From Alkaliflexus imshenetskii DSM 15055 (lineage in GTDB: Bacteria; Bacteroidota; Bacteroidia; Bacteroidales; Marinilabiliaceae), in assembly GCF_000517065.1 (NCBI RefSeq), contig NZ_KI912105.1:2614571-2678570 (forward strand): a DNA stretch of 64,000 bases, written 5' to 3'. Made by a program: the position numbers and the translations under genes. The notes beneath the pieces are model-generated. The model searched no databases and was not told the origin of the DNA. It saw only the letters and a program-made list of their open reading frames with translations. Below, one piece after another: positions 2,872-52,448 of the stretch. Every line of letters starts with the position of its first letter. Positions within the stretch are counted from its first letter, which is position 1.

Positions 2872-3049
2872 ATGAAACATCCATGTCAGGGAAATTGACC
2901 CACAGGCGGATGATTATTTAGCGTGTTCCATGTGGCCATTGAAAAACAAATTATAAATACATGAAACGAGTATGAGAAAATCGCTCACACACAGAAGAAT
3001 GACTCGAACAGCGAGTTCCATGTGGCAATTAAAAAGAAATAATGGACAC
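2872..3049 (+). repeat. Tandem pair of 89-nt structured units (copies A and B)
   Basis: Unit A is 2872-2960 and unit B is 2961-3049, each exactly 89 bases. Each starts ATGAAAC and ends immediately before another ATGAAA. The 3' half is well conserved (GCGTGTTCCATGTGG at 2921-2935; GCGAGTTCCATGTGG at 3011-3025). The 5' half differs in sequence but folds alike. In A, CATCC/GGATG (2878-2882/2908-2912) encloses GTCA/TGAC (2885-2888/2896-2899). In B, CGAGT/ACTCG (2967-2971/3002-3006) encloses TGAG/CTCA (2973-2976/2984-2987). A third copy lies directly before rlmH (51885-51974). Unit B is followed by an 18-codon ORF (3050-3106). Function unknown. Confidence 0.75.
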
Positions 3050-3174
3050 ATGAAAACTATTGCATTGTTGTTGAAAAAAACAGAATCTAGTATGTTAACT
3101 AAATAGATTATTGGTTTCCTTTTTAACAAACAGATATTCTTTTTGATATAATCAGTTTTTTTTTAAAAAAAAAG

Positions 3175-3762
3175 ATGAAAAAAATTTTGCTATTGATTTC
3201 CTGTGCAATCGTTTTGTTCGGTTGCAAAAAAGAAAAAGAAGAAAACAGTCAGATTCCCTTTCTGCGTGAAAAGTTCCAAGGGAAGTACAGAATACTTTCC
3301 TCTTATTCAAGTATTCCTGTTGACTTAAACAATGATGGAGTTGAATCTACAAATCTACTTACTGAGAATTCATTGATCTTGTTCGACGCCAAACTGATAT
3401 GTAGAATACCTACCGGATATGATTCAGATAAAGTTTTCCTCCTTGATGAGATTTGGCCTACAGAGACTGATAGGAGACCTGAGATTACTGAAGTTATACC
3501 GATATATGGTGTTCCCACTGAAACAGGTGCATATAATCCATATATTACTCTAATTAATGCGACTTTTACCGATGATTTCAAAAGCGCCAGCGCAACTATA
3601 TTTTTTCCCGGCATGTATGGAAAGACTTTAATTGATATTTATTTTGAATTTTTAGAGGACGAAATCATTAAAACTACTGCGACCCGAAAATTATATACAA
3701 GAACAGGCTGGGTTACTGTAGAGATAGAATCTGTATATAGAAGATACACAGAAGTCTTATAA
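3175..3762 (+). CDS. Lipocalin-like lipoprotein (195 aa)
   Basis: The signal peptide is MKKILLLISCAIVLFGC, with the acylated Cys at residue 17, followed by a Lys/Glu-rich linker. The mature part begins with KYRILSSY, then VDLNNDGVESTNLL. That 'Tyr/Trp...VDLN-DG-S-(D/N)LL' pattern is typical of Bacteroidetes lipocalin-like lipoproteins, which are usually 130-200 residues and beta-rich. The ligand is not predictable. The gene follows the tandem structured repeat by 125 bases, and an A-rich stretch precedes its ATG. Like the neighbour at 1256 it is AT-rich and does not belong to tryptophan synthesis. The family assignment is a pattern judgement, not a search result. Confidence 0.7.
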   Translation: MKKILLLISCAIVLFGCKKEKEENSQIPFLREKFQGKYRILSSYSSIPVDLNNDGVESTNLLTENSLILFDAKLICRIPTGYDSDKVFLLDEIWPTETDRRPEITEVIPIYGVPTETGAYNPYITLINATFTDDFKSASATIFFPGMYGKTLIDIYFEFLEDEIIKTTATRKLYTRTGWVTVEIESVYRRYTEVL

Positions 3763-4241: not shown

Positions 4242-4370
4242 TTTTTGTGTATTTGTTTTGTTTTTCAAGCGGTTGAGGTGTGAAGGATAAAAAGGAATAT
4301 GTCTCAAGTAACAATGATGTAGAGTATGATTTTCTGAATTAATTTGTTATTCAATAAATATGTTAATCTG

Positions 4371-5171
4371 ATGAATATCCTGGATAAAATTGTTGCCCGT
4401 AAGCGAGAAGAGGTTCGTGAAGCCAAACAGAAGGTTTCATTAAGTGAGTTGGAGCAGTCGGTTTATTTTTCGCAGATAGTACCATCATTTAAGCGGCAGA
4501 TTCTTGCCGAAGGTTCTACCGGTATCATAGCCGAGTTTAAGCGGCGTTCGCCCTCAAAAGGTGATATAAACGGAAATGCACGCGTGGAAGATGTTCTTCC
4601 GGGTTATGAAAAGGCCGGCGTGGCTTGTGCCTCAGTTTTAACCGATCGTGATTTTTTTGGTGGGTGCGATGCCGATTTAATTCAAGCCATAGAGTTGGTT
4701 AAGTTACCCATCATACGTAAAGAGTTCATCATCGACCCTTACCAGGTTTATGAGGCCAAATCTTTTGGTGCAAGCGCCATTTTGCTGATAGGTGCAATTC
4801 TCAATGCTTCACAAACGGCCGATTTGGCTGCTCTTGCCAATGCTTTGGGTCTGGAGGTGTTGTTTGAGATTCACGACGAGGTGGAGCTTAATCAGTTAAA
4901 TGATCACATTCAGCTAGTGGGTATCAACAATCGCAACCTGAAAACTTTCAAGGTCGATTTGGAACAATCCATGCGTTTGGCTGGGATGTTGCCCCCAGAG
5001 ATGGTTCCTGTGGCCGAAAGTGGAATCGCATCAGCTGATGACTATTTTATGCTAAAGAATGCAGGGTTTAAAGGTTTTTTAATGGGTGAATACTTTATGA
5101 AACAGCCCAATCCCGCCGAAGCATGTGCGGCTTTTTGTAACCTGGTTCGCAATGAAGCAGCAACAGCATAA
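4371..5171 (+). CDS. trpC: Indole-3-glycerol phosphate synthase
   Basis: TrpC closes CdRP to indole-3-glycerol phosphate with loss of CO2 and water. The start at 4371 (MNILDKIVARK) gives 266 residues, the normal single-domain length, and removes a nine-residue unsupported extension. It is a TIM barrel: IIAEFKRRSPSKG carries the catalytic Glu55 and Lys57, IIRKEFIIDPYQVYEA is strand 4, VGINNRNLKTF is strand 6, and VAESGI near residue 220 is the phosphate-binding end. The gene is preceded by the Trp-codon attenuator and followed by trpF after 18 bases. Expression should therefore rise when charged tRNA-Trp falls. Confidence 0.97.
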   Translation: MNILDKIVARKREEVREAKQKVSLSELEQSVYFSQIVPSFKRQILAEGSTGIIAEFKRRSPSKGDINGNARVEDVLPGYEKAGVACASVLTDRDFFGGCDADLIQAIELVKLPIIRKEFIIDPYQVYEAKSFGASAILLIGAILNASQTADLAALANALGLEVLFEIHDEVELNQLNDHIQLVGINNRNLKTFKVDLEQSMRLAGMLPPEMVPVAESGIASADDYFMLKNAGFKGFLMGEYFMKQPNPAEACAAFCNLVRNEAATA

Positions 5172-5189
5172 CCCATAAATATTCACAGG

Positions 5190-5822
5190 ATGCTGATAAA
5201 GGTATGTGGAATGCGCCAGATGGCAAATATTGGTGAATTGTGCAAGCTCAAACCGGATTACATTGGTTTTATTTTTTATCCAAAATCGCCAAGGTATGTG
5301 GGAGAAATCCTGACGCCGGAATCAACCCGGCTGATACCCTCGGAGATAAAGAAAACAGGTGTTTTTGTAAACGAGTCGCTAAAGATTATTTTAAGTGAAG
5401 CCAAAAAATATAGCCTGGATGCCATTCAATTGCATGGAGTAGAAGGTCCGGATCTTTGCGGGCAATTGAAATCAGAGGGATATGAGATTCTTAAGGCCAT
5501 CAATCCTGAATCAATTGACGTCCCGCAGAGGTTGTCAGCCTATGAAACGGTTTGCGATTTCTTTCTGTTCGATACACCATCGGTGAGTCATGGTGGAACA
5601 GGTCGCAAATTCAACTGGGATCTGCTGAACCAGTATGCAGGAAACCTGCCATTTTTCTTAAGCGGAGGCATTGGCCCGGATGATGCTGGTGAAGTGCTGA
5701 AACTTGAGAATAAGTATTTGGCAGGGATAGATATCAATAGCCGTTTTGAATCAGCCCCCGCATTGAAAAACATTGATGCCATAAAACTGTTTATTGATGG
5801 ATTTATAAATTTAAAACAGTAG
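5190..5822 (+). CDS. trpF: Phosphoribosylanthranilate isomerase
   Basis: TrpF converts PRA to CdRP by an Amadori rearrangement, the step before TrpC. The 210 residues match the family. It starts with KVCGMRQ, carrying the catalytic Cys6; GVFVNES, IQLHG and LFDTPS (general acid Asp) follow, then the phosphate-binding GGTG/SGGIGPDDA region. It is a separate gene rather than a TrpCF fusion. It follows trpC by 18 bases and precedes a lipoprotein gene by four bases, so it is part of the attenuated operon. Confidence 0.96.
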   Translation: MLIKVCGMRQMANIGELCKLKPDYIGFIFYPKSPRYVGEILTPESTRLIPSEIKKTGVFVNESLKIILSEAKKYSLDAIQLHGVEGPDLCGQLKSEGYEILKAINPESIDVPQRLSAYETVCDFFLFDTPSVSHGGTGRKFNWDLLNQYAGNLPFFLSGGIGPDDAGEVLKLENKYLAGIDINSRFESAPALKNIDAIKLFIDGFINLKQ

Positions 5823-5826
5823 AAAT

Positions 5827-6417
5827 ATGAGACGTACCATTTTATTCGTATTCGTGATTGGCTTAATCGTGTCGGCTTGTAAAACTTCAGGAAGCGATAG
5901 TGCCAAAAACAATGCTCAGGATGTTCAATCTAACGGATTTGATCTAACCAAAATTCCAATAAGCACTGCTCAAATTGGAATTATCCCTTATTTTCAACTA
6001 CCCGATGGCTATACTTTCTCAACCAGATACACCAATGATTACGATTATCTGAGATTCTGGACAGGCTCCGAATTTCTCTTGCCCGAAGGAAAAGTTTTTC
6101 AGTCCCGAATAACGCCTGTTTCAGGAAAATCTTTTTCATCACTTGAATTCATGAAAGGCTTTGAAGCTACTCTTAAAGAGGCAGGGGCAGTGCAAATATT
6201 TGAAGGCAAAGTGCCCAGAGAGGAAATTGGTAAGTTTGAAGAGATCAATGGAACGCAAAACCGAATCAACAACTTGGATGCTTATGGGTTTCAAGGTTAT
6301 GCCAAAAGCTGGATTTATGTGGTTCGTCAGCCAAATAAGTATGTCTGGTTTCAGATTAATGAATCTGATGACAATGCCAGTATAAATCTTGGAATTGTGG
6401 AGTCTGAAATGCCTTAA
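5827..6417 (+). CDS. Lipoprotein of unknown function inside the trp operon (196 aa)
   Basis: The signal peptide has a lipobox LIVSAC at Cys17, and the first mature residues are Ser/Asn-rich. The body contains an aromatic-rich segment (PYFQLPDGYTFSTRY, then YLRFWTG) and a C-terminal stretch KSWIYVVRQPNKYVWFQIN; I do not recognise the family. It starts four bases after trpF and lies 80 bases before trpB on the same strand, so it must be co-transcribed unless an unseen promoter lies in the gap. No link to tryptophan synthesis is apparent: the protein is exported, whereas Trp enzymes are cytoplasmic. Codon use is ordinary for the window. Confidence 0.75.
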   Translation: MRRTILFVFVIGLIVSACKTSGSDSAKNNAQDVQSNGFDLTKIPISTAQIGIIPYFQLPDGYTFSTRYTNDYDYLRFWTGSEFLLPEGKVFQSRITPVSGKSFSSLEFMKGFEATLKEAGAVQIFEGKVPREEIGKFEEINGTQNRINNLDAYGFQGYAKSWIYVVRQPNKYVWFQINESDDNASINLGIVESEMP

Positions 6418-6497
6418 GATAGTGTCACCCTGCCCCGGTTTTCGCTCTTTAGAGATTAATGATTGTCAAACTAAAATTATAATATCACCAATAAACC

Positions 6498-7676
6498 ATG
6501 CATCAACCCAACGAAGAAGGATTTTACGGTAGGTTTGGAGGAGCATTCATTCCCGAAATGCTTATTCCCAACATCGAGGAGCTGGAAAGCAAGTATCTTA
6601 ACATTATCTCATCAGAATCGTTCCAAAAGGAATACCACCGTTTGCTCAACGATTATGCCGGACGACCGTCGCCTCTATTCAAAGCCGAGAGGTTGTCGTC
6701 GAAGTACGGCGCAAACATCTGGCTTAAACGTGAAGATTTGAACCATACCGGCTCTCATAAACTGAACAACACCATCGGTCAGATTCTGCTTGCCAAAGAG
6801 ATGGGGCGGCAACGTATCATTGCTGAAACCGGAGCAGGTCAGCATGGAGTAGCCACTGCCACCGTTTGTGCGCTCATGGGGTTGCAGTGCGTGGTTTATA
6901 TGGGCGAAACCGACATGGAGCGTCAGGCTCCCAATGTGGCACGGATGCGTATGTTGGGCGCTGAGGTACGTCCGGCCTTGTCGGGCAACCGAACATTGAA
7001 AGATGCCACCAATGAAGCTCTGCGTGACTGGATTGCCAATCCTACAGATACCTTTTACCTTATTGGCTCTGTGGTGGGGCCGCATCCGTATCCCGATATG
7101 GTTGCCCGATTGCAGTCTGTCATCAGTTCCGAAATTAAGCAGCAACTAAAAGAGAAGATTGGAACGGAATTACCCGATTATGTTGTAGCTTGCGTGGGGG
7201 GTGGCTCAAATGCAGCCGGCAGTTTTTATCATTTTTTGGATAACCCTTCGGTAAAACTCATTGGTACCGAGGCGGCCGGACTGGGCGTGGATTCAGGTGA
7301 AACAGCGGCATCCATTGCTTGTGGAGACTTGGGGATTATTCATGGAAGCATGACTTATCTTATGCAGAGTGAGGATGGCCAAATTACTGAGCCCTATTCC
7401 ATATCTGCAGGCTTGGATTATCCTGGAATTGGGCCATTGCATGCCTGGCTTAAAGATTGTGGCCGTGCAGACTACTTACCGGTGACAGATGACCAGGCTC
7501 TTGATGCTGTGATGGAGCTTACACGGCTCGAAGGAATTATTCCCGCACTGGAGTCGGCTCACGCTTTGGCTGCATTGGTCATGTTGCCTTTGAAATCTTC
7601 AGATAACGTGGTGGTTACTGTGTCGGGACGAGGCGATAAGGACATGAAAACTTATATGGAGCGTTTTAGCTTGTAG
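6498..7676 (+). CDS. trpB: Tryptophan synthase beta subunit
   Basis: TrpB joins indole and serine using PLP, working as alpha2-beta2 with TrpA. The 392 residues match the main TrpB1 family. It begins with an N-terminal [10 protein letters not shown]. The PLP lysine is Lys88 in HTGSHKLNN, followed by [13 protein letters not shown], the indole tunnel region, and the phosphate-binding GGGSNAAG near residue 235. The C-terminal SGRGDKDM is typical of TrpB1. trpA follows after 28 bases. Placing trpB after trpF and before trpA is common in Bacteroidetes. Confidence 0.97.
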
Positions 7677-51493: not shown

Positions 51494-51884
51494 GAAACGA
51501 TTATTTTGGTTTTTCTGATGCAGTGTAAAAACGATCCTGCACATAAGGCTTAGTTTCTATCAACTGCTTTATACGAGAAATGCATACACATGTTTCGTAT
51601 AGTTCAATTTGAAGGTACAAAAACTAAACCATAAATTTGGATAGGGTTTCTTATTTTTGTTTTTTGCTGATGCTTTGCGTATTCTTACTGGTTTTACCCG
51701 AATACTTTTTGGAATGTAGAATTATCAGATTATTGCATCCTGTCAGTATTTACAAGGTATTTATCCTGCAAATAAACGAACTTATTTGAATATGGGGGGC
51801 TTGATTGGTGCTTTTTTATGTTGTTACCCATTCAGATTTGTTCGTTTTTTCAATAAAATTAGGATTTGAATAGCAAAAATAGAG
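51494..51884. other. Divergent intergenic region, no gene seen
   Basis: About 390 AT-rich bases between the DUF4783-like gene (minus) and the structured element before rlmH (plus). No ORF or consensus promoter is convincing. Confidence 0.35.
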
Positions 51885-51974
51885 ACGAAACGAGTCATGA
51901 GCAAACCTTTCTCAATCATAGGAATGATTAAGTGGCGTGTTGCGTATGGGAACTAAAAAACAAATTTTAAACAG
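51885..51974 (+). repeat. Structured leader element before rlmH (copy C)
   Basis: 90 bases ending at the rlmH ATG. It aligns with units A and B at 2872-3049: GAAACGAGT near the start, GGAATGATTA, GCGTGTT (51935-51941) and TAAAAAACAAATTTTAAACAG at the end. It folds the same way: AGTCA/TGATT (51893-51897/51925-51929, one G-U pair) encloses TGAG/CTCA (51898-51901/51911-51914). Probably a leader RNA or dispersed structured repeat; function unknown. Confidence 0.7.
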
Positions 51975-52448
51975 ATGAAAACGCACCTCTTAATGATTGG
52001 ACGCACAGACGAGGCCTGGCTTGGTACAGGAATTGCTGAGTATTTTAAACGTATCACCAGATACATCCCTTTTCAGGATATGGTGATTGCAGACATAAAA
52101 AAGGGTAAAAATACCACTGAAACTATTGTTAAGGAGAAAGAAGGGGAGCTGATTTTAAAGCAGGTGTCGGCTGGAGATATTTTGGTGTTGCTAGATGAAA
52201 ATGGGAAACAGTTAACATCGCGTGAGTTCTCTTCTTTTGTGGAAAAGCAGATGGTTGGCGGGGTGCGTAACCTCTTTTTCGTCATTGGTGGAGCGTATGG
52301 ATTTTCAGATGCTGTGTATGCTCGTGCCGACCATAAATTGGGGCTTTCGCGAATGACGTTCTCCCATCAAATGGTGCGATTGATATTTGCAGAGCAGCTA
52401 TACCGGGCAATGTCAATTTTAAACAATGAACCTTATCATCATGATTAA
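51975..52448 (+). CDS. rlmH: 23S rRNA (pseudouridine1915-N3)-methyltransferase RlmH
   Basis: RlmH methylates pseudouridine 1915 of 23S rRNA using SAM. 157 residues, SPOUT fold. LVLLDENGKQLTSREFSSF and the SAM-binding knot FVIGGAYGFSDAV, followed by LSRMTFSHQMVRLIFAEQLYRAMSILNNEPYHH, the usual C-terminus. Preceded directly by the structured element and followed 23 bases later by the sensor kinase. Confidence 0.96.
   Translation: MKTHLLMIGRTDEAWLGTGIAEYFKRITRYIPFQDMVIADIKKGKNTTETIVKEKEGELILKQVSAGDILVLLDENGKQLTSREFSSFVEKQMVGGVRNLFFVIGGAYGFSDAVYARADHKLGLSRMTFSHQMVRLIFAEQLYRAMSILNNEPYHHD

Follow-up and report, generated by a model that had tools for sequence, protein, structure and literature searches.

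Folded non-coding elements dispersed at ATGAA start codons in Bacteroidota

Bacteroidota genomes carry a dispersed, high-copy family of folded, non-coding elements that are precisely present or absent at start codons, bring an A-rich start region of their own, and contain three covarying helices. Three copies (A, B, and C) lie in the window, which is the whole stretch of 64,000 nucleotides from Alkaliflexus imshenetskii DSM 15055 that was analyzed, and the family across Bacteroidota is larger than an earlier note on this DNA had indicated. The reading we favor, with moderate confidence, is that these are DNA elements, most of them at ATGAA start codons, that were inserted as folded DNA by a recombinase acting in trans.

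The earlier note had described two adjacent 89-nt units with a common 3' half and a third copy, each ending directly before ATGAAA; all of this is present in the window, and the 3' half is common to all three copies. The distance from ATG to ATG is 89 nt in copies A and B and 90 nt in copy C, and the ATGAAA that follows copy C is the start of rlmH at 51975 (Table 1). The 5' end of each unit reads ATGAAAC in copies A and B and ACGAAAC in copy C, where the P1 arm has the matching GTTGCGT. Copies A and B do not follow the consensus plan given below, and neither does P3 of copy C, which is broken (CGTATG versus CAGATG). The ATG at the 3' end of copy B opens an ORF of 18 aa only. Two models were used in searches: R1, a sequence-only model from five copies of the same genome, and R2, a structural model from 108 copies. 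Over the whole genome, the R1 E-values of copies C, A, and B (2e-22, 5e-22, and 7e-17) are far above chance, partly by construction because the five copies behind R1 include all three. By eye, the window also contains trpD (37-612) and trpC/trpF/trpB (4344-7676), and this trp operon is interrupted by two lipoprotein-like genes (1256-2809 and 3175-3762) and the tandem elements.

Table 1. Element copies, helix arms, and the adjoining gene in the window.
Feature	Position	Strand	Basis or remark
Element copy A	2872..2966	+	Sequence, with both ATGAAA ends within; R1 and R2 matches
Element copy B	2961..3055	+	Tandem with A, ATGAAA 2961-2966 common to both; R1 and R2 matches
Element copy C, before rlmH	51885..51980	+	R1/R2 matches
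rlmH, SPOUT methyltransferase	51975..52448	+	PF02590, E=1e-53; start ATGAAA is the 3' border of C
A, P2 5' arm GTCA	2885..2888	+	Pairs with TGAC 2896-2899; P2 covaries in 108 copies
B, P2 5' arm TGAG	2973..2976	+	Pairs with CTCA 2984-2987; P2 covaries
C, P2 5' arm TGAG	51898..51901	+	Pairs with CTCA 51911-51914; P2 covaries
C, P1 5' arm ACGAAACGAGTCA	51885..51897	+	Sequence
C, P1 3' arm TGGCGTGTTGCGT	51933..51945	+	Sequence
B, P3 5' arm CATGTG, complement of the start site	3019..3024	+	Sequence; P3 covaries
B, P3 3' arm CACATG, 3' border ATG included	3047..3052	+	Sequence; P3 covaries
A, P3 5' arm CATGTG	2929..2934	+	Pairs with TACATG 2958-2963, one G.T
C, A-rich tail	51951..51974	+	Directly before the start codon; putative translation-initiation region of rlmH, compare A-rich Bacteroidota starts (accessible part of PMC6847099)

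The consensus element has three helices. P1 is a long hairpin of ATGAAACGAGCCA with TGGCGAGTTCCAT, and it includes an A.C mismatch in 91 of 108 copies and a conserved GA/GA double mismatch; its foot pairs GTTCCAT with ATGAAAC. P2 is a short covarying hairpin within P1. P3 pairs CATNTG with CANATG, the last three letters of which are the 3' border ATG. Because the central CAT can pair with either ATG, the P1 foot and P3 are mutually exclusive. The letters CACAGG and ATGA are conserved and unpaired, and optional inserts are found as a CCCGATAAATCGGG-type hairpin after GTTC or a short AATCGAAGATCGGCGTAGCC-like stretch before ATGA. The ends are not terminal inverted repeats (mean best identity of 16-nt ends in 108 copies 0.36, compared to 0.38 when shuffled, and none ≥0.75).

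Copies were collected from 228 hits, of which 203 were distinct and had the ATG and 183 had both P1 arms recognized; the own-genome part comprises 29 of the 35 R1 matches (those with a fetched locus, one weak partial match removed). Length filtering and de-duplication reduced 144 copies to 114 and then to an alignment of 108 rows. Six copies with shifted or damaged ends or an insert were left out, and L069 was replaced by the identical copy L280. Loci of named genomes were fetched with an exact P1 pattern, and therefore they inflate the conservation of P1, not that of P2 or P3. Paired cells make up 95.4% of P1 in this alignment. For P1 and P2 together, 89.4% of cells hold standard pairs (22-42% in slid controls), and covariation is 0.154 compared to 0.088 in shuffles that ignore kinship, none of 500 reaching the observed value. 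P3 pairs in 93.8% of cells, with covariation of 0.202 compared to 0.073 (0 of 500 shuffles, kinship again ignored). The earlier note had proposed looking for covariation, for further copies, and for positions before start codons; both helix sets lie above their shuffles. The letters are swapped in unrelated families, so common descent is unlikely as the sole cause. The P3 table excludes 22 copies with a hairpin insert. In it, 139 of 161 copies (56.6 expected) have a Watson-Crick pair between the base preceding the border ATG and the P3 partner of that base, and this first pair is G-C in 68, C-G in 42, and A-T in 28. The host base before the left border matches the P3 partner in 44 of 161 copies (43.4 expected), and pairing of the element with that base was rejected.

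Two nested covarying stems had been read from the three window copies. The inner stem (GTCA/TGAC, TGAG/CTCA) is P2 and held over 108 copies, but the outer stem (CATCC/GGATG, CGAGT/ACTCG) did not. On the columns of copy A over the same 108 copies, its covariation score of 0.030 is equalled or exceeded by three of six slid versions, and 57.6% of its cells pair, compared to 7-42% in slid versions and 56.7% in shuffles. With covariation no better than in slid versions, it was ruled out as a feature of the family; in most copies its 5' arm pairs instead with the P1 strand further 3'. The note mentions neither the ATGAAAC with which units begin nor a helix that takes in the following start codon. 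It had recognized no known RNA family, and none of 4,227 Rfam families passed the gathering cut-off on the elements. The only Rfam match over the cut-off in the window is SSU rRNA, and the best sub-threshold matches (E 0.5-10), in A/B and one other copy, are to unrelated families.

Copy number in the family ranges from 0 to 92 between related genomes. With R1, the own genome has 27 copies (E≤0.01), and 25 of 41 genomes including it have 1-92 copies each, 783 matches in total. With R2, 30 of 394 phylum genomes including the own have matches at E≤1e-4 (up to ten candidates scored per genome): the own genome, 24 in other families of the class, and 5 in other classes. An exact-pattern scan of named genomes gave at least 115 stretches. 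Among the matches listed, most have names such as Natronoflexus, Breznakibacter, Labilibacter, Labilibaculum, Carboxylicivirga, Geofilum, Saccharicrinis, Marinilabiliaceae, Prolixibacteraceae, and Marinifilaceae; the others are unplaced Bacteroidota bins and a few other labels. Viral contigs gave no match to one exact pattern, and on that pattern a viral home was rejected. Distant copies at the R2 loci keep the same plan in different letters. L424 has AACCTGCTTT/AAAGCAGGTT and CATCAG/CTGATG, L410 has CATAAG/CTTATG, and L427, with CATAAC/GTTATG, is only 64 nt long with both ends included. Length in the family is about 60-130 nt, and no autonomous version of the element was found.

The borders place the element at gene starts. 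The left end is ATGAAAC in 160 of 183 copies, and at the right border 165 of the 183 read ATGAAA and 12 read ATGAAT, counts that favor ATGAAA because R1 and R2 both end in it. Another copy follows directly in 19 of 183. Among the 164 copies without a copy after them, the border ATG opens an ORF of ≥60 aa in 131, in agreement with the expectation of matches before start codons, and 33, including copy B, have no such ORF. As a control, 22 of 90 ATGAAA hexamers in the window (both strands) open an ORF of that size. At the R2 loci, 24 of the 29 placed by script (of 30) open one. Where the ORF is present, no copy precedes, and enough flank is available, the joined frame stays open upstream for ≥40 codons in only 5 of 101 copies; therefore nearly all sites are gene starts, not gene middles. 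The downstream genes are unrelated (for example CTP synthase, LpxB, cobalamin adenosyltransferase, and RlmH). The first 220 aa of 132 downstream proteins matched 162 Pfam families, the commonest (SusD-like) in 7, and a pathway-specific leader was rejected for lack of a common pathway.

Flanking composition is also that of gene starts. In 130 non-tandem 5' flanks, A rises over the last 20 nt (0.33 to 0.45), with values of 0.58-0.61 at -11 to -13, and the element tail AAACAAATTATAAACA(N) before the ATG is likewise A-rich at -11 to -13. In Flavobacterium johnsoniae, positions -14 to -11 are enriched in A, and initiation is favored by A at -3, -6, -12, and -13 (accessible part of PMC6847099). The flank pattern is this Bacteroidota start-region signature, as far as that part of the source describes it.

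Presence and absence were compared at six occupied sites of one genome (G006) and the matching places in a genome of the same genus (G024). At three of the six sites the absence is clean: the leader joins the start codon directly and the gene is otherwise intact. The joined G006 flanks match the empty alleles at 81/85, 58/65 (left flank of 25 nt), and 80/85 positions. At the third clean site the gene starts with ATGAAT, G006 has two tandem copies, and their left border is ATGAAAC; therefore the left ATGAAA came with the element, and the element sits directly before ATGAA. The other three sites gave no clean comparison: the upstream region of one could not be aligned, G024 has a different remnant at another, and the copy at the last ends at ATAAAA, where there is no start codon. 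An empty site alone is compatible with gain or loss of the element. Taken together, presence and absence at ATGAA, a left ATGAAAC borne by the element, and the retained gene start suggest insertion before the start codon, and from these sequence comparisons we infer that the species difference arose by insertion rather than loss. With empty sites and unrelated downstream genes, the copies look like a mobile family and not a set of regulatory leaders, and the reading in the earlier note is supported in part.

At rlmH, 29 loci of other species were compared by reading the 130 nt before the start by eye (two were not aligned at the start), and all 30 loci were searched with R2. None of the 29 has an R2 match at E≤1e-4 that ends at the rlmH start. 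Two weak R2 matches from two other genera end exactly there (L160:1430-1506, E 0.14; L166:1966-2062, E 0.24). These may be decayed copies, and if they are real, rlmH was hit more than once. Good copies occur elsewhere in the rlmH locus of L166, L172, L177, and L178. Besides the element, the rlmH leader of the window (51670-51884) has by eye about 200 nt more than L155 after a shared TATTTTTGTTTTTTGC, which is perhaps another insertion.

Under the favored reading, the element would land immediately before ATGAA. The internal GTTCCATNTG would act as a guide that pairs with the element's own 5' ATGAAAC in the P1 foot and then with the target CANATG in P3. The element would be non-autonomous and depend on a recombinase provided in trans. 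Insertion at a start codon would be tolerated because the tail replaces the start region of the gene, while elements landing within genes would be purged.

The same fold could instead be a cis-acting RNA switch, which we consider unlikely. In that case P3 would hide the start codon until the same CAT paired with the 5' ATG in the P1 foot and so freed it. The trigger would be a ligand, a protein, or translation of a short upstream ORF, and the usefulness of the copies would explain their spread by duplication. P3 contains the AUG of the gene and covaries, and in predicted RNA folds of 147 copies P3 exceeds 0.5 in 94, P1 exceeds 0.5 in 87, and just 19 leave the start codon mostly unpaired. In 126 of 147 copies, the short ORF that begins at the 5' ATG stops before the gene, but its frame is not kept; the conserved unpaired CACAGG and ATGA would suit a switch, but the downstream genes have no common pathway and copy number is 0-92 between related genomes. 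An RNA-level helix should show an excess of G.U over A.C mismatches, and this counts against the switch: paired positions hold 60 G.T and 68 A.C cells (p=0.54), with 32 versus 41 in P2 and 4 versus 13 in upper P3, although the P1 core alone has 17 versus 10 (foot, 7 versus 4). There is therefore no overall sign of selection on the transcript strand, and a folded DNA strand is at least as likely to be the selected form as an RNA strand. The earlier note had taken compensatory change as selection on RNA structure; selection on a folded structure stands, with far stronger support than three copies could give, but selection specifically on RNA is not demonstrated because the two mismatch types are about equal. 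Since the start codon is held in P3 in the predicted RNA folds, an effect of an inserted element on translation is possible.

IS200/IS605 ends carry a guide complementary to their border, and the internal complement of the border in our elements is comparable. Together with dispersal, hairpin formation, and the lack of terminal inverted repeats, this would fit a repeat of the REP/REPIN or IS200 type, mobilized by a Y1 (HUH) transposase with single-strand hairpins as its substrate. We regard such an origin as improbable. The GTAG and CGTC tags of REP-type repeats (accessible part of PMC3733652) do not occur at the P1 foot in 108 copies. The Y1 transposase (PF01797) does not track the elements, being found in 21 of the 25 genomes with elements and in 12 of the 16 without, and it was rejected as mover since two genomes carry copies without a PF01797 match (G007, with 35 copies and 98% complete, and G015, with 22 copies). 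Very improbable is a further alternative in which homologous recombination or slippage between A-rich leaders swaps start regions with no dedicated mover. The tails are A-rich and alike, and tandem copies have ATGAAA in common, but the borders offer only about 6 nt of homology; in each of the three clean empty alleles the former leader is retained as far as the ATG, and therefore material was added or removed, not exchanged.

Insertion by a trans-acting recombinase calls for a candidate enzyme. The integron integrase TIGR02249 was over the cut-off in 1 of 41 genomes, and a true integron integrase was rejected as mover. The same scan led to a group of tyrosine recombinases with frames of 335-737 aa, most with N-terminal extensions. 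Four of 15 candidates have HARP-like segments below the Pfam curated cut-off (E 0.00022, 0.0066, 0.025, and 0.055); HARP binds forked DNA. A profile of 16 recombinases (A8) separates the group, with ≥359 bits for members and ≤242 for other fetched recombinases. In the nearer set of 41 genomes, counting best hits only, A8 is present in 18 of the 25 genomes with elements and in 3 of the 16 without, 8 of these 16 being judged from integron-scan scores only. Recombinase loci were fetched from 33 of 41 genomes (G031, without a matching frame, was counted as lacking the group), and the eight genomes without a fetched locus are all element-free. In the phylum set, with three candidates scored per genome, A8 is present in 21 of the 30 genomes with elements and in 94 of the remaining 364 (Fisher p 1.7e-6, a value confounded by phylogeny). 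Elsewhere in the class 20 of 24 element-bearing genomes have A8; in other classes the association is reversed, since none of 5 does and 61 genomes there have A8 and no element detected. None of 37 fetched recombinase loci (3-9 kb each) carries an element.

The mover could be this co-occurring tyrosine recombinase, some members of which have a weak HARP-like N-terminal region; the lead is confounded by kinship and is the weakest step of the proposal. The full version of the proposal is doubtful: phylum-wide start-codon-inserting folded DNA, with a guide for CANATGAA, moved by a tyrosine recombinase whose HARP-like repeats bind forks, and rewiring translation through a new foldable start region.

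Other recombinases were seen in these genomes. Seven places in the own genome, with almost the same score, have a tyrosine recombinase in a frame of 314 aa (G000 C5 252818, 294054, 301304, 379210, 484214, 2878061, and 3530084). One fetched copy (L442:2744-4811) overlaps a Y2 (IS91-type) transposase, and no start-codon element lies near that copy of this multicopy IS91-type element with its tyrosine recombinase; similar recombinase and IS91-type transposase pairs are in L444 (G006) and L451 (G014). Three tyrosine recombinases of 675-691 aa (L443:2155-4179, L445:1813-3843, and L450:1986-4058) have two SAM-like stretches but a single Pfam catalytic domain, a layout suggestive of a decayed second recombinase half in the N-terminal part.

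Integron attC sites are imperfect hairpins with outer arms ..AAC / GTT.. and core direct repeats at both borders, and their boxes are defined as GTTRRRY / RYYYAAC. The start-codon elements resemble them in having a hairpin with ..AAC/GTT.. arms, direct repeats at the borders, tandem arrays, and co-occurring tyrosine recombinases. They differ in that the arms are ATGAAAC/GTTCCAT (AAT/ATT in other families) and not RYYYAAC/GTTRRRY, so that no R box is present, no gene-cassette array was seen, and the integron integrase is nearly absent from the 41 genomes. Translational riboswitches and leader RNAs are likewise structured up to the start codon and have two helices that compete for a single strand. 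The elements have covarying helices next to the start codon (by shuffles that ignore relatedness), but in contrast to riboswitches they lack a common downstream function or single pathway, show no excess of G.U over A.C, vary widely in copy number (0-92), and are present or absent at start codons.

REP/REPIN repeats and MITEs are short, dispersed, high-copy, folded, and non-coding, with presence or absence between relatives, and our elements share these properties, including dispersed copies and empty sites in close relatives (clean at three of six). In contrast to both, they lie mostly on ATGAA gene starts in the sense direction, lack terminal inverted repeats, and contain, besides a translation start region, a complement to the start codon that covaries. 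A MITE would also show a target duplication that varies from site to site, whereas the borders here are ATGAAA or a near variant; REP/REPIN with RAYT would have Y1 in copy-bearing genomes, which G007 and G015 lack. The nearest in kind are REPINs and MITEs (accessible parts of PMC3116915 and PMC3733652) and TAACTGA repeats (accessible part of PMC4679880). The latter are direct repeats that lie a few nt upstream of the start codons of numerous genes with no common function, reported also in five Bacteroidetes, and position before functionally unrelated genes is the likeness; they are heptamer arrays, and no folded unit ending at ATG is described in that part of the source (PMC4679880). In literature other than preprints and subscription papers, no description of the start-codon element was found, and the accessible parts of PMC2864571 and PMC9723704 hold nothing on it.

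The position of the element bears on what it may mean for its hosts. Mobile elements usually damage or bypass genes, and Bacteroidota are naturally without Shine-Dalgarno sequences. The start-codon element seems to have the start codon itself as its target and to reconstruct the start site on landing, and it can therefore sit before genes such as rlmH. In the phylum it would continually supply new translation-initiation regions, and it would be a way into new insertion machinery. For annotation, hundreds of 5' leaders (the 783 matches in 25 genomes) are this element.

Other repeats accompany the family. A second subfamily, ATGAAACGACCATG(T)AAATTTGATTATCC...AAATTTACTTGAGAGTTCCAT-like, is often tandem with the main type (L110:780-859, L316:212-289, L283:4181-4287, and L274:119-227). 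Further dispersed repeats of about 150-400 nt have many matches in G024 (L354:3251-3670, L137:536-677, and L137:1849-2265), and short CCCGAGGCTTCGGG-type hairpins are nested within start-codon elements.
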